Under the pieces are notes generated by a model that saw only the letters and a program-made list of their open reading frames with translations, made no database searches and was not told the origin of the DNA. This document shows positions 44,613 to 51,980 of a stretch of DNA of 64,000 bases, in pieces. This DNA is from an uncultured Anaerolineaceae bacterium (GTDB taxonomy: Bacteria; Chloroflexota; Anaerolineae; Anaerolineales; Anaerolineaceae), in the NCBI GenBank assembly GCA_927443345.1, contig CAKMKJ010000006.1:62001-126000 (forward strand), read 5' to 3'. Position 1 is the stretch's first letter, and the number at the start of each line of letters is the position of its first letter. Position numbers and translations under genes: made by a program.

Positions 44613-44819
44613 CTACCTTATGAAAAATGGTAAATTAATAGCCCCCGTTGGACATATCTCTTCACACAGTCCACAATTATTGCATTGTTCAGGTTTGTCG
44701 ATGGTTGGTTCCATACCTTGAAATGCAATTGTTCCGGCTGCGCACACATAAGAACAAGCCCCGCAATGAATACATAATGATGCGTTAATCATCTGAAATA
44801 ACATTTCGCTTTGAATCAT
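44613..44819 (-). CDS. 2[4Fe-4S] ferredoxin
   Basis: Start at ATG 44819 (MIQSEMLFQMINASLCIHCG); longer frames start inside the regulator spacer. 68 residues with two cluster motifs, CIHCGACSYVC and CNNCGLCEEICP. The usual Pro after the first cluster Cys is Ala (CAAGTI). A small cytoplasmic electron carrier. It follows the Crp/Fnr gene by 72 bp on the same strand and may be co-transcribed with it. Possible electron donor or acceptor for a nearby redox enzyme, including the heme-copper complex. Confidence 0.9.
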   Translation of the reverse strand: MIQSEMLFQMINASLCIHCGACSYVCAAGTIAFQGMEPTIDKPEQCNNCGLCEEICPTGAINLPFFIR

Positions 44820-44891
44820 AAAAGAAAACCCTTTCACGTTATTGATTCTAGCGTGATGAAGGGGCAAATAATACGCTTTTTGTCTTACTTG

Positions 44892-45887: not shown

Positions 45888-47516
45888 TTATACTTTCTCC
45901 GTTGATTTTTGCCATTTTTCGGGAATGACCAGTGAGAAGACATTTTTTAACCCAAGAGTACTCACGAGGTTAACCACGAATATGATAAACCCGATTGAAA
46001 GGATGCTGCCAAAAATAATGGCGGCCAGAGTATAAGGGGTAAATTCACCGCCAGTATAAAGTGTACGGCGCAGCATACCCTTTGATCCAGCCATACCCAT
46101 CGCCATAGCCATTCCAACCGAGCCAATCATCCATAACCAAAAATGCCAGTCAACAAGTTTTTTGAACTTAAACTCAAGATGGGTGAGCATGGGCACCAGA
46201 GTGTAGATCACCGAGAAGAGCATGGTGCCGACACCGGTGAGCAGCAGGGCGTGCGCGTGCAATCCGATCACCCATTGAGTGTTGTGAAGTACCACGTTCA
46301 AACCGACATTAGCCTGCAAAATACCAGCCATAGCCCCCATGACGAATCCGAACATCGACCCCAGGGTGAATTGTAAAGGCGGTGACATTTTCACGGGGCG
46401 GGCTTTCCAAATGGTCATTAGCGTGGCAAAAAGGGTCAAGCCCATGGTGAATATTTCACCCCACGTGATCAACTGGCCTGAAAACAATCTCATCCACATA
46501 GGTTGAGAGGTATCACCCAACAAGTGGTGACTCCATACCCCCATTGAAACCAGTAAATCGACCATAATAACGGTTTTAACTACATTCGCGCCAAAGAGTT
46601 TCCTGCCGGTGAGAAGCGGCACCAGCAGGTACCACACACCAGCCGTATAGATGAGTACATTTCCATCCGCGACCATATCCAAACCCCACCAATAGAGGTT
46701 TTTGTAGAGGAGTGCATCAACTGCCCCCGGGTTAAGCGGATGTCCCAACAACGCAAAAACGCCATACACCAGGATCAGCACACCCGCCGCTAGCAGTACA
46801 ACCGCATTGATGACTGTGTCGATGGATCCTCTTGCTACTGCAACGATAAATACTGGCATGCCATTGTAGTCAAGGTTTACTGCGCCTTTATCTTCTTTGC
46901 CAAAAAGCTTCATTAATCTTGGAATACCAAATGCTGCTCTAAGAAATTGACCGACAGTATATGAACCATCATGGTCTTTGCTCAACACAGTTTTAAAAAT
47001 ATTGTATGAGAAGATTAAAATGTTCACCATAATGATGGCCGCCCCCAACATGAAGGCGATACTTCCAATCAACGGAACGCGGTCAAACGCAACGGGCAGA
47101 GGCCAATAAAGAGTGTATAAAGCGTTAAATAATCCAAAGAACCCCGCGGCCCAACAGACCATGACACCGATGATTTGCAGCCAGAAGTTAGCTACTACCA
47201 ATTTGGGGTGTTTGACGGGTTTTTTTACCAGATAGGGCACCAGGAAATAAAACGCGCCGAAAATTGCCATATAAACGAAACCGTAGATACCCACAATGGG
47301 ATGTGCGGTAAGCATGGCGTAGTAGAGATTTTCGGTGCTGATGTCGCTTCCGACAGGACGGATGTTATTAAGTAAGGTTTCCATACCATGCAGCGAATTT
47401 ATATCATATTGCTGCGATCTCATTAACATGCCTTCAAGTCCGGAGAGCAGCATGAAAAGGAGTGCAACCACCGTAAAACGCAATGTCCATTTTTCAATCC
47501 AGCCAAGTTTTGCCAT
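45888..47516 (-). CDS. Heme-copper oxidoreductase subunit I, probable nitric oxide reductase
   Basis: 542 residues, 12-14 membrane helices, B-family-like layout. Low-spin heme ligands: His72 (TAHPIVGIYG) and His422; high-spin heme ligand His420 (IGLHAHALLLTG). The helix VII His pair is His330/331 (WSHHLLGDTSQP). In helix VI, where oxidases have WWTGHPxxY, the sequence is YWWGLDMVADGN: Asp280 replaces the Cu-B His and Asp284 replaces the cross-linked Tyr. Loss of the Tyr argues against O2 reduction and fits NO reduction. Some non-canonical NOR families are known to use two His and one Asp at the metal. AGGAG precedes the ATG, 9 bp after subunit II. Confidence 0.9.
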   Translation of the reverse strand: MAKLGWIEKWTLRFTVVALLFMLLSGLEGMLMRSQQYDINSLHGMETLLNNIRPVGSDISTENLYYAMLTAHPIVGIYGFVYMAIFGAFYFLVPYLVKKPVKHPKLVVANFWLQIIGVMVCWAAGFFGLFNALYTLYWPLPVAFDRVPLIGSIAFMLGAAIIMVNILIFSYNIFKTVLSKDHDGSYTVGQFLRAAFGIPRLMKLFGKEDKGAVNLDYNGMPVFIVAVARGSIDTVINAVVLLAAGVLILVYGVFALLGHPLNPGAVDALLYKNLYWWGLDMVADGNVLIYTAGVWYLLVPLLTGRKLFGANVVKTVIMVDLLVSMGVWSHHLLGDTSQPMWMRLFSGQLITWGEIFTMGLTLFATLMTIWKARPVKMSPPLQFTLGSMFGFVMGAMAGILQANVGLNVVLHNTQWVIGLHAHALLLTGVGTMLFSVIYTLVPMLTHLEFKFKKLVDWHFWLWMIGSVGMAMAMGMAGSKGMLRRTLYTGGEFTPYTLAAIIFGSILSIGFIIFVVNLVSTLGLKNVFSLVIPEKWQKSTEKV

Positions 47517-47525
47517 GGTTTTCTC

Positions 47526-47942
47526 CTATTTCACTTCGATTGCATCTCTGACAACCATGCCAGAATGCTTGGGGCCAGAATATTCAGTAGATCGAACATC
47601 ATACACGCCGGTTTCATCGAACATCCAGATGATCGTGTTGGTTCTGCCGGGAAGTACCTGCATCTGGAAGACCATGCTGTTGTCTTTTCGGAAAACCCCG
47701 AACCCATAAGTTACATCAGCGGAGGTGGCAGCAAATTGCACATATTCACCCTTCTTGATCTCCACCGGTGCCTCCATTGAAATGATGTAATCCTCATATT
47801 CAATATTCACTACTTTAGCAGGAGTTACTTTTTGCCATAACTGCCACGATTGCCACGGAACAAGCGTTGAGAGTGTGACCGCATTTACAACGACAAATAA
47901 GGCGACAAGAAAGAATAACCAATTTCGCTCTGATTTATCCAT
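47526..47942 (-). CDS. Heme-copper oxidoreductase subunit II lacking CuA
   Basis: 138 residues: one N-terminal helix (about 8-28) and a cupredoxin domain outside the membrane. In CuA proteins the pattern is DVxHSF ... CSEYCGxxHxxM. Here it is DVTYGF (Tyr79 for His) and STEYSGPKHSGM, with Ser118 and Ser122 for the two Cys; Glu120, His126 and Met129 remain. So the fold is kept but the dicopper site cannot form. Electrons probably enter another way, for example directly from quinol or a cytochrome. Start ATG 47942, one base after the stop of the 34-aa gene. Confidence 0.9.
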   Translation of the reverse strand: MDKSERNWLFFLVALFVVVNAVTLSTLVPWQSWQLWQKVTPAKVVNIEYEDYIISMEAPVEIKKGEYVQFAATSADVTYGFGVFRKDNSMVFQMQVLPGRTNTIIWMFDETGVYDVRSTEYSGPKHSGMVVRDAIEVK

Positions 47943-47943
47943 C

Positions 47944-48048
47944 TTACTTACCTCTGTCCTTTATCAAGATGGAAAATACGAGAAAAAAAATAGCAACGGA
48001 GATAACCAGGGTGACATAAATCCACCATAAGTTGTCTGTAAAGTGCAT
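47944..48048 (-). CDS. 34-aa single-helix subunit (subunit IIa-like)
   Basis: ATG at 48048 with AAGGAGG 5 nt upstream, an excellent ribosome site. Translation: MHFTDNLWWIYVTLVISVAI then FFLVFSILIKDRGK and stop. One membrane helix (about residues 8-29) with positive residues at the C-terminus (KDRGK). It ends 1 nt before subunit II, so translation is coupled. Thermus ba3 oxidase has a 34-residue helix subunit IIa in the same operon position. That makes a structural subunit the best guess here. Confidence 0.8.
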   Translation of the reverse strand: MHFTDNLWWIYVTLVISVAIFFLVFSILIKDRGK

Positions 48049-48797
48049 ATGAACCTCCTTAAATGATTGTTGAGTTAATTACCCATTACTGATTACAAGG
48101 TAGATCTTTTACCTCCTTTAAATTTGAGTAATCCGCTCAATTCAAATTAAGGTCTGACCAATTGTTGATCAAAAAAACTTGCTTCGAAAAACGGATTTCG
48201 CAGTTGGCGTTTTGTAAGACTATTGATAATGGAATGTTATGCTGTAAACATTCCAAATACCATGACTTAAGTCTTATTTGTCTCGTAAAATGGTTTTCCT
48301 AACCTAATAAATGCATTGAGCCATTAGGAGATTTTGAAGTGAGGTAATTCAAGTTTAATTATCCAGCTAGCAGACACATACTTCTTGAAAATGGCTTTGT
48401 CTTTTGTAATAATTCGCCAGCCTAGTAGGAACAACCGAATAAAGAATTAATACCCAATCGAATGAAGGGGGTACAAAATCTGTTACCTGAGTTAAACCCC
48501 AACATAAAATCATCTTTTTATCTAATTGGCAAAGAATTAAGGGAAACAGTTTAACCCACACTCTCTGGTAATTAATCAAAAAAACAGAATAAATACACAA
48601 TTTGATCTAAGAATACACAACAAGTTTTACCGAATTGGTTTATCACCGTTTGGGTGAAAATCGGATTTGTTAAAACTTATGTTTTCTCAGATCAAAAACC
48701 TATGCCTTGTTGATTTTTCGATGAGGAATGTGGAAACAACTTATGAGTAAACGGTGCTTAGCGCTTTCTAAGTTTTAATTACAATCAGGCTCTCAGT
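48049..48797. other. Long upstream region of the heme-copper operon
   Basis: 749 bp. It holds the operon's promoter region. Candidate operator: nested inverted repeats AATTTGA (48121-48127) / TCAAATT (48142-48148) and TTGAG (48124-48128) / CTCAA (48136-48140). A TTGATCAA palindrome lies at 48165-48172. A second AAAGGAGG-like string (minus strand, near 48112-48119) has no usable start codon after it. No other gene is convincing; an open frame at 48367-48600 (-) lacks support. Confidence 0.5.
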
Positions 48798-51700
48798 TTA
48801 TGGAATTTGGTTCAATCTTTCTTTGAGTATTGAATAAATCGATTGAATATCCAGTTGTTGTTTCCCGGTCAACTTATCTGTTAGTTTATCCCAGGTTGTT
48901 TTTGCCTTTTGGCGCGTGGATTCTTCTGCTCCTTCAGCATTCATGGTTACCTCCAAAACAGGGGCCAGACCCTTCTGGTTTCCCAGATGGATCAATAATC
49001 GACAAGCTTCAACCACCCCTCGATGGAAAAAATTCATCGTTTCGAGCGCTATCGCTTTTTGCAGCAGCAAGAGTAATTCACTTTTTGCTGATTGCAAATT
49101 GCCACTTTCGCGATATGCCTCAGCTAAAACAATCCGCGCAGATAAGATTCCCCAATCAGATTCTATCTCTTCACTAATAGCCAAAGCTTGTTCATTATAA
49201 AAAATAGCATTCTCAAAATCATTTTGGTAAGCCGCGGTTTCACCGAGATTCGACAAGGCAATCGATTCTCCCTCGCGGTCACCTATTTGACGACAGAGTT
49301 CTACACTGTTGGAAAAATAATCAATCGCTTTAGGATAATTCTTCAACTCCAAATAAGCTGTACCCACATTGTTTAGTATCAGCGATTCAGAATAGAAATT
49401 TTGATTCGAACGAACATTGATCAATGCCTCTTGGTAATAATTCAAAGCAAGGTTGTAATCACCTCTATAACATGCAATATCTGCAAGAACATTCAGTACT
49501 TTTGAAAGTCTACGCCAATTTTCAAGTTTTTCACATAACACGCGGCAATCGAGGAGGTTCTCTTCAGCAGTGGATGGATCCCCCAGATTTAATCGAGCAT
49601 ATCCAAGGTTGTAGAGTGAATGAGATTCTTCTTCATTATTTTTTATCAACCGGGACAACTCAAGTGCTTCCAATGCAAAGCTAATGGATGTGGAAGAATT
49701 TTTACATATTTTGGCATGGGTTGCCAATGCATTTAAGCAAAAAGCTTCTTCGTCCTGTAAGCCAAATCTTCGAGCGGTATCCAACCCAAAATGCATACTA
49801 TCTACTGCGTTCTCATACTGTTGAATATTAATCCCAAAAAGAGCGACCCGGCAAACAAGTTTTGCACGGCAGATCAAATTCTGATCATTATCAGAAAACT
49901 TTGCAAGCAAGTTATCAAATGTTTTTATACCTTCTCGATAAAGGCTTAGATTTTCAAAATAGTTGTTTAAAGGTGTAATTAATTCTTCAACAAGTTTCCA
50001 TTTCTCGGATTGGATAAACCATTGGATTGCCACCTCTATATCAGAGAGGATACTTTCAAACCCTTTGTGAAAACTGATTGCGAAATTTCCTTTGAACTCT
50101 GTATATAAATATAGACTCTGTTGATAAAACCAGACTGCGTGGCGTTCAGCAAGTGTCTTTTGCTCATCTTCTGAAAGCGTATATCTCTCACGGATGTTTT
50201 GCTTGACAACCCGGTGAAACCGATAATGAGATTGTCCATCCCAAATTAGTAATGCCCTGCGTGAGAAATCCTCCAAAACAGAATCTGAAATTTCGCAAAC
50301 AACCTGGGCTGCCTGAACAGTGAACGGATTTTCAAATATGGTTAATCGGAAAATAAATAATTGCTCTTGACTAGAAAGGTGACGCCAAACGTTCTCAAAG
50401 GATGCCTGAATACTACGGTGCCGTTCTGGAAGATTTATTGAATTGGAGTTCAGGATTTTAATACTTTCTTGAAGTCCAATCAAAATCTCTTCTATAGGAA
50501 TCCATTTTGTTTGACAGGCTGCCAGATCAATTGCCAAAGGGAAGCCTTCTACAAGATCACAAATTTTTATGACATTAGTGGAGAAATCAGGGTTGGAAAT
50601 TTCAGGAAGACTTTCAACCTGTAAATGAGAATAGAATAGTTTCGCTGCATCTGATTGCTCACCTTCTCGGGTTGACAGGCCGCTCAAAGCCAAAACTTTC
50701 TCTCCGACCAAATTAAGAAATGAATACGAAGTGAACAGAAGAACACTATCTGGTGCAACCTCGGTTAATTGTTTTGCCAGGAGGGCTGATATTTCAACGT
50801 CTTCGACATTATCAAACACCAACAGCGCAGAGCGATTAAGAATCCAATCTGATAATTCTTGCATTGAATTCGATGTGTGCTCTATACTGTTCCCTAATGC
50901 GAGCAGAATTGTTGAAGCAAGATGTTCCAAAGTGAAACACCCCGCAATAGATACAAAATAAACGCCATCCTTAAAAAGAGCGTTTTGAAGGTTGGCCAGT
51001 TCTACTGCCAGTCTCGTTTTACCAGATCCACCAGGGCCTGTAATCGTGATGACTTTATACTCCGGATTAGTTATCCAATTTTCCAAGACTATTATTTCAT
51101 TTTCACGACCGACAAAGGGGGTGGCATAACCTGGCAAATTCTTCAAAATCGAGATCCACGGTTTTTGAGTTTTGCCGGAGGATAAAAATTTTTGAATATC
51201 TGAATACGCATTCTGAAGAAGCAATCCGGGTTCAAGATCAAGGCTGCTTTTTAGATAACGAACAGCGGAATGGTAATGACTTAAGGCAACGTTTGCCAGG
51301 GAGGATTGAAGAAGTATACGGATCAATCGAGCATGGATATCTTCATCCCAGGGGGCAATCGTCAATAAATCTTCAGCAATTTTTCGTGCTTGCACCCATT
51401 CGCCGCGGGATTCAAAATATTTTAGCAAAATAGAATACCCTGACACTTTAAGTCGATTAATTTTTTCTCGTTTCAGTATCAGCCAATCTTCAAACAAATC
51501 AGAATCCGGAAAAGTCAACAAAGGGAGAATTTCGCCATTAACAAAGCTCATGGTTTTTTTGAGTTGATAAATTGGAAATCCACAAGATGACTGACCGTTG
51601 TGGCGATCTAACAAAATTTGGATTGTATTTTCAAACGCCAATACATCAACTTGAATGGCAACATTTTCATTCAATGCCAAAGTATCTCTATCGCTGGAAA

Positions 51701-51980
51701 ATATTTCAACATCTTCGATGGTTTCTGAAATCGCCTTCTTAATCGTGGTCAACGCCTGCCGCAGATTGTGCAGCGCTGTCTGATCTGGAACATCGGGCCA
51801 GAAAATCGATGCCAATGAACTGCGGGTTTTCAACTGATTTTTTTCAAGTAATAAATAAGCAAATAATCCCCTGGCTTTTTGTGAAGAGATTTCAACCAAC
51901 GGGCACCCGTTAATACTGATTGAAAAATCGCCAAAAAAATTGGCTTTCAAAGTCAGGTGATGTGATTCGATTTGCTTCAA
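48798..51980 (-). CDS. SARP-like transcriptional regulator: BTAD, NB-ARC-type ATPase, TPR
   Basis: 1060 residues. N-terminal OmpR-like winged helix (about 10-100; ANFFGDFSISINGCPLVEIS), bacterial activator domain (about 105-250), an AAA/NB-ARC-type ATPase (P-loop ITGPGGSGKTRLAVELA near 310; ALLVFDNVED near 390), then about ten TPR repeats (YARLNLGDPSTAEENLLDC, ALNYYQEALINVRSNQNFYS, DYFSNSVELCRQIGDREGES). It resembles AfsR/MalT-type signal-integrating activators that oligomerise with ATP. Divergent from a small gene plus lipoprotein, which may be its targets. Confidence 0.92.
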   Translation of the reverse strand: MKQIESHHLTLKANFFGDFSISINGCPLVEISSQKARGLFAYLLLEKNQLKTRSSLASIFWPDVPDQTALHNLRQALTTIKKAISETIEDVEIFSSDRDTLALNENVAIQVDVLAFENTIQILLDRHNGQSSCGFPIYQLKKTMSFVNGEILPLLTFPDSDLFEDWLILKREKINRLKVSGYSILLKYFESRGEWVQARKIAEDLLTIAPWDEDIHARLIRILLQSSLANVALSHYHSAVRYLKSSLDLEPGLLLQNAYSDIQKFLSSGKTQKPWISILKNLPGYATPFVGRENEIIVLENWITNPEYKVITITGPGGSGKTRLAVELANLQNALFKDGVYFVSIAGCFTLEHLASTILLALGNSIEHTSNSMQELSDWILNRSALLVFDNVEDVEISALLAKQLTEVAPDSVLLFTSYSFLNLVGEKVLALSGLSTREGEQSDAAKLFYSHLQVESLPEISNPDFSTNVIKICDLVEGFPLAIDLAACQTKWIPIEEILIGLQESIKILNSNSINLPERHRSIQASFENVWRHLSSQEQLFIFRLTIFENPFTVQAAQVVCEISDSVLEDFSRRALLIWDGQSHYRFHRVVKQNIRERYTLSEDEQKTLAERHAVWFYQQSLYLYTEFKGNFAISFHKGFESILSDIEVAIQWFIQSEKWKLVEELITPLNNYFENLSLYREGIKTFDNLLAKFSDNDQNLICRAKLVCRVALFGINIQQYENAVDSMHFGLDTARRFGLQDEEAFCLNALATHAKICKNSSTSISFALEALELSRLIKNNEEESHSLYNLGYARLNLGDPSTAEENLLDCRVLCEKLENWRRLSKVLNVLADIACYRGDYNLALNYYQEALINVRSNQNFYSESLILNNVGTAYLELKNYPKAIDYFSNSVELCRQIGDREGESIALSNLGETAAYQNDFENAIFYNEQALAISEEIESDWGILSARIVLAEAYRESGNLQSAKSELLLLLQKAIALETMNFFHRGVVEACRLLIHLGNQKGLAPVLEVTMNAEGAEESTRQKAKTTWDKLTDKLTGKQQLDIQSIYSILKERLNQIP

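Follow-up and report, generated by a model that had tools for sequence, protein, structure and literature searches.

In the excerpts cited here, gNOR is described as carrying D as its active-site residue at the tyrosine position in Sulfurimonas, Sulfurovum and Persephonella (PMC8756737, Table A4), together with a cupredoxin as its second subunit and without a proton channel (PMC8756737), and Methylomirabilis is also credited with a gNOR (PMC6094997). The enzyme is reported to be quinone-oxidising and non-electrogenic (PMC8906906), and therefore needs no CuA. A His-to-Asp exchange at the Cu-B/Fe-B site is stated for 'certain NOR types' in a passage of PMC3475470 that cites Sievert 2008, the Sulfurimonas genome paper; the 'certain NOR types' of this passage are taken here to mean gNOR. 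gNOR, sNOR and nNOR are listed as proposed types in the relevant part of PMC11388526, and Glu211 and Glu280 of cNOR are reported in PMC3431322 to be critical for activity and proton uptake.

The locus analysed here encodes a heme-copper enzyme with Asp at both the helix-VI Cu-B histidine and the tyrosine position (the Asp-Asp family), which a preliminary description had presented as an under-described variant and a good candidate for a new subtype. That claim is not supported: Asp at the tyrosine position is already published for gNOR (PMC8756737), and the His-to-Asp exchange for certain NORs (PMC3475470). The odd metal site is known in kind from other microbes, and the status of a new subtype is not shown. 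Among the titles and abstracts of the literature library searched, none described a heme-copper operon of this Asp-Asp kind from Anaerolineae or Thermoproteota; one may be included in Murali et al. 2024.

Operon layout and gene neighbourhood

The operon occupies 45888-48048 on the minus strand of the window, the 64,000-nucleotide stretch of DNA under study, and consists of exactly three genes, a small membrane peptide coming first, followed by subunit II and then subunit I (Table 1). The contig that carries the window is 140 kb long and belongs to a 3.67-Mb genome, 98.8% complete, which its named relatives mark as an Anaerolineae-type member of the Chloroflexota. A pattern scan of genome contigs returned 29 loci, all of the Asp-Asp family, and the gene order was common to the Anaerolineae and Thermoproteota operons. 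A small peptide ORF of 34-61 aa with a hydrophobic stretch directly precedes subunit II in 24 of the 29 operons; among the five with no printed small peptide, L018, L023 and L029 are near a contig end.

Table 1 Genes and active-site codons of the three-gene operon
Feature	Position	Strand	Basis
Small membrane peptide, first operon gene, 34 aa	47944-48048	-	ORF list
Subunit II, COX2-type cupredoxin without CuA, 138 aa	47526-47942	-	Pfam COX2, E 6e-5
Subunit I, heme-copper catalytic subunit, 542 aa	45888-47516	-	Pfam COX1, E 9.6e-63, 213 bits
Asp280 codon, helix-VI Cu-B His position	46677-46679	-	alignment column
Asp284 codon, oxidase Tyr position	46665-46667	-	alignment column
His330-His331 codons, helix VII metal ligands	46524-46529	-	alignment; invariant in family
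Glu354 codon, helix VIII, column with Glu in cNOR	46455-46457	-	alignment column

A neighbouring Crp/Fnr regulator had also been pointed out for the window. Such a gene does lie directly downstream of the operon, but in five loci only (the window, L010, L011, L012 and L013), all of one genus; it is missing in L014 of that same genus, and L024 and L028 have a Crp/Fnr gene elsewhere. Other genes found near the operon were a hemerythrin gene in L013 and L017, a heme o synthase gene adjoining it in L028, a CtaA gene in L029 and a ferritin-like gene in L031-L034. Directly downstream of the Crp/Fnr gene in the window lies a small dicluster 4Fe-4S ferredoxin (Pfam Fer4; 44613-44867, minus strand), and upstream of the operon a 1060-aa BTAD/NB-ARC/TPR regulator-like protein is encoded at 48798-51980 (minus strand). 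Membrane proteins of 459-491 aa with no Pfam match were observed near the operon at L012:13201-14673 and L022:9741-11117, and are BLAST-related in L012, L022 and L025.

A perfect 10-base palindrome, GACTTAAGTC, lies at 48264-48273 (minus strand), about 220 bases before the operon, and is a possible regulator site; the stretch around it is alike in the window, L010 and L011, and not in L012-L014. The FNR-type box TTGATNNNNATCAA, searched with up to 2 mismatches, matched the window 84 times where 63.3 matches were expected, a number reached in 2 of 100 shuffles, and was set aside; its first match upstream of the operon (48775-48788, 2 mismatches) is 727 bases away. An Rfam search of the window returned 0 matches.

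Helix VI and the active site of subunit I

Subunit I was aligned with MAFFT L-INS-i as 44 family rows (41 distinct, with L050 repeating L038, L095 repeating L037 and L097 repeating L029) and 32 other heme-copper subunits I: 9 A-type, 8 B-type, 12 others, 1 sNOR, 1 cNOR and 1 cbb3, the classes of unannotated comparator rows being assigned in this analysis from motifs. The sNOR row stands for Ruegeria pomeroyi plasmid genes (L039), called sNOR by their Asn and by the host list in the excerpt of PMC8756737, and the cNOR (NorB) row was found by motif on S. meliloti pSymA. The family set comprised alignment A2, from which L032 (a stop within the given stretch) and L036 (a fragment) were dropped, and 16 added rows (L050-L061, L095, L097, L098 and L099) chosen with a motif containing both Asp.

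Asp280 falls in the column of the Cu-B histidine, which held Asp in 44/44 family rows and His in 32/32 comparators. The Asp284 column likewise held Asp in every family row, and the comparators carried Tyr (29), Gly (1, cbb3), Asn (1, sNOR) or Glu (1, cNOR). Both placements agree with the preliminary description. The stretch upstream of Asp280 fitted without gaps, with Trp276 facing Trp in most rows, and helix VI was one residue longer than in A- and B-type enzymes, an extra residue that sits further along the helix and is also present in the cbb3 and cNOR rows. Two contrary registers were noted: a pairwise HMMER alignment, by placing a gap, sets Leu279 opposite the Cu-B His, and counting back from Pro300 points to Met281. 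Asp280 was kept at the Cu-B His position because the residues before it, Trp276 among them, align without a gap and the many-row alignment gives a consistent register.

The contig scan used peptide patterns taken from the query, one of the two being [YF]WWGLDM, so that the motif in L010-L038 was partly selected for. Loci found by profile were read with an Asp-independent pattern, and both Asp were present in 32/32 of those covering helix VI, some of which repeat scan genes; L062 and L100, fragments that lack helix VI, stand outside this count. The presence of Asp at both positions is not due to chance.

The heme ligands His72, His420 and His422 and the helix VII metal ligands His330 and His331, previously said to be intact, were in place and invariant in the 44 rows, as were His411, Arg483 and Arg484. 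No other histidine, whether His411 or one supplied by a shifted helix VI, was found to fill the Cu-B position. The oxidase position and the part of helix VII preceding His330 hold none of the invariant tyrosines, which are those at 82, 134, 137, 296, 438 and 487, and the check for a tyrosine elsewhere thus came out in favour of the earlier reading. Glu354 was Glu in 44/44 family rows and, among the 32 comparators, its column held Glu in cNOR only, a match to one very divergent row (end branch about 4). Asp284 and Glu354 may be the counterparts of Glu211 and Glu280 of cNOR.

The structure model (m77926db34f2f) had a mean pLDDT of 78.1 and a pTM of 0.83 but was poorly defined around the active site, where residues 332-336 and 407-413 fell below pLDDT 50. 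The best 50 matches each of Foldseek and VIA-align were oxidases and bo3 and aa3 quinol oxidases, with cbb3 in the VIA-align list; that NORs are missing among these best 50 is uninformative.

An O2 reductase with an unusual site is very unlikely, even though subunit I is a member of the oxidase superfamily, is called cytochrome oxidase by annotation models far below their cut-off (best NCBIfam match CtaD/CoxA, 122.6 bits against a cut-off of 670.75) and, as the sole PF00115 match in the window's genome, leaves no other heme-copper gene there. One Cu-B His is lost, the oxidase position of helix VI has no tyrosine, the helix-VII stretch before His330 holds no invariant one, and the genome also encodes a bd oxidase. 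The family gene was the only heme-copper gene in 7/7 family genomes tested (in two pieces in G488), and match counts indicated further heme-copper genes in other family genomes, e.g. G565, G664, G723, G610, G711 and G1076.

CuA loss, distribution and host genes

In an alignment with sNOR and ba3 subunit II, Tyr79 replaces one CuA His and Ser118 and Ser122 replace both CuA Cys, exactly the exchanges first described for the window. All three were present in 27/27 operons with a readable subunit II; in the remaining two of the 29 the contig ends within 21 bases and subunit II is unreadable. The same exchanges were seen in every subunit II printed for L050-L061, L095, L098 and L099, L097 being left out with only 87 bases upstream, and in L055-L061 a Val precedes the Tyr. 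The remaining CuA His and Met were not strictly kept, the His missing in L018 and L099 and the Met in L055, L060, L061 and L098. The closest solved sequences to subunit II were Thermus ba3-type subunits II (1ehk_B, E 4.6e-7), and the lowest E-value among 15 listed of 173 plasmid records belonged to the R. pomeroyi sNOR subunit II (3e-10). The sequences of the two subunits support the preliminary description in its features of an NO reductase rather than an O2 reductase, in a non-heme metal probably held by two His plus an Asp, and in an electron path that would bypass CuA.

That a His ligand and CuA are missing could also be read as decay, leaving a degenerate or non-catalytic heme protein such as a sensor or a decayed oxidase. 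This reading is very unlikely, since the 44 bacterial and archaeal rows have 89 invariant positions, heme ligands and acidic residues included, and the operon has been kept across the two domains.

The named relatives were Chloroflexota MAGs with 56-96% identity, mostly of Anaerolineae or Thermoflexia and one labelled Dehalococcoides sp., and the archaeal relatives in the scan were six Crenarchaeota/Thermoproteota MAGs with 48-50% identity. The family was present at E<=1e-60 in 6/101 genomes of near relatives, all in the window's genus (6/16 genomes of that genus), and at E<=1e-20 in 2/400 genomes drawn from the phylum, the window's genome included. By our own count from the listed scores, it was present in 21/396 genomes of the window's class and in 13/300 of the phylum to which G490 belongs, G490 being the genome that carries the Hecatella locus L038. 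Viral contigs gave 51 pattern stretches and 0 relatives, and none of the 284 plasmid records matched covered 80% of the query. Other heme-copper genes of both phyla were checked for eNOR and gNOR and none was found, His and Tyr being present in 62/62 readable rows (from 66 loci, with L102, L127, L128 and L129 left out).

A tree of 20 of the 44 family rows and the 32 comparators separated the family from A, B, cbb3, sNOR and cNOR by a single branch (99/98), with a stem of 0.61. Such a placement among the heme-copper families had been called for at the outset. Ten bacterial rows formed a clade (100/100), but L099, whose genome belongs to the window's class, fell in with archaea, in one of their two groups (98/93); this position of L099 makes an exchange between the domains likely. 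Two further sets of archaeal heme-copper genes, L070 (G721)/L134 (G777) and L071 (G544)/L130 (G629), have His and Tyr intact and join the sNOR row in the tree, and the helix-VII stretch of L070, HHVFMDIPNP, is rather like that of the Asp-Asp family.

Among the listed matches, the family, fragments included, scored at least 173 bits and every other heme-copper match at most 101 bits. This sharp gap, and the long stem in a tree lacking the gNOR sequences that might break it, would suit an undescribed NOR family in its own right, found in Chloroflexota and Thermoproteota, that has its Asp features in common with gNOR through convergence or because the two are sister groups; each testable gNOR trait was nevertheless found here, judged against excerpts of the published descriptions, and this reading is considered unlikely. 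In its fullest form it would comprise a metal site of 2 His and 2 Asp with Glu354 nearby, a 2-His-carboxylate-type non-heme iron in a heme-copper fold, removing NO in non-denitrifying Anaerolineae and Thermoproteota and exchanged between domains, which is similarly doubtful.

Host genes bear on the hemes and on the task of a gNOR-like enzyme. Heme o synthase (TIGR01473) scored over its cut-off in 7/10 family genomes and below it in the window's genome, G001 and G013 (200.4 against 210.3 bits in the last); because TIGR01473 is not passed in the window's genome, b-type hemes are likely in that organism. NosZ was over cut-off in 0/16 family genomes and in none of 14 control genomes either, so that this search had no positive control, and short matches to its cupredoxin part occurred in 15/16 family genomes. 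NirK was over cut-off in 0/16, with weaker matches in 5/16 (best 112 bits, G694). Cytochrome d1 passed its low Pfam cut-off in 3/16 (G1076, G806 and G286) once neighbouring pieces were summed; as candidates for NirS these matches were rejected, being stretches of ~100 positions in frames of more than 1000 residues, and were taken for other beta-propeller proteins. No cytochrome d1 was found in the window's genome and no convincing NirS in the 16 family genomes. NO removal is likelier than denitrification because neither NosZ nor NirK exceeded its cut-off and no convincing NirS was found in these 16 genomes. NrfA was over cut-off in 2/10 family genomes and was not found in the window's genome.

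Comparison with described reductases

The operon probably encodes a gNOR-like (NorGH) membrane nitric oxide reductase that would remove NO in its hosts, and the sequences are best read as those of an NO reductase fed by quinol, with a metal site rich in carboxylates and probably occupied by iron. (Mena)quinol would supply electrons to the low-spin heme, with no CuA in between. The non-heme metal, more likely iron than copper, would have His330, His331 and Asp280 as its ligands and Asp284 nearby, in the manner of Glu211 in cNOR, and two NO would be joined to N2O at the heme-metal centre without the oxidase tyrosine. The task in these hosts would be NO removal and not a full denitrification chain. 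General models call these genes cytochrome oxidase, and in consequence O2 respiration by a heme-copper enzyme may be ascribed to hosts that would instead reduce NO to N2O. With a compact three-gene operon and members in hot-spring MAGs, the choice of iron or copper at the 2-His/2-Asp site would become testable.

Likeness to gNOR, which was compared by published description (in excerpt) only, comprises Asp at the tyrosine position (Asp284, 44/44), replacement of one Cu-B/Fe-B His by Asp (Asp280, 44/44, against His in 32/32 comparators) and a cupredoxin second subunit, here a COX2 domain that has lost its CuA ligands in 27/27. Every gNOR trait open to test by sequence was found. The hosts differ, being Anaerolineae and Thermoproteota that are not recognisable denitrifiers. 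eNOR is described with Gln at the tyrosine position (excerpt of PMC8756737), in contrast to Asp284 in 44/44 rows here.

The sNOR (NorSY) row has the same helix VI-VII register, and no other of the 15 listed plasmid matches had as low an E-value as its subunit II; it differs by its retained Cu-B His, by Asn in place of the Tyr, as PMC8756737 gives for sNOR, and by a complete set of CuA ligands, none of which the family has. The cNOR row shares a carboxylate at the tyrosine position, Glu in the Glu354 column and the length of helix VI, but keeps the helix-VI His and lies far off in the tree. cNOR works with a heme c subunit. Both cNOR and qNOR are described with Glu at the tyrosine position and three metal His (excerpts of PMC8756737 and PMC3475470), whereas the family has Asp284 and Asp280. 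The B-type (ba3) enzymes resemble the family in gene order, small peptide, II and I, as in the ba3-like clusters of the PMC3475470 excerpt, and in providing the nearest PDB subunit II (1ehk_B, E 4.6e-7); the ba3-type rows differ by their Cu-B His and Tyr, and ba3 subunit II by its intact CuA ligands. In A- and B-type oxygen reductases the Cu-B His is followed by Tyr four residues on, where the family has Asp at both positions. To these systems the present analysis adds a real and strongly conserved NO-reductase-type operon, its clade in Anaerolineae and Thermoproteota, the loss of CuA throughout the rows read, a kept small peptide and a cNOR-like Glu354.
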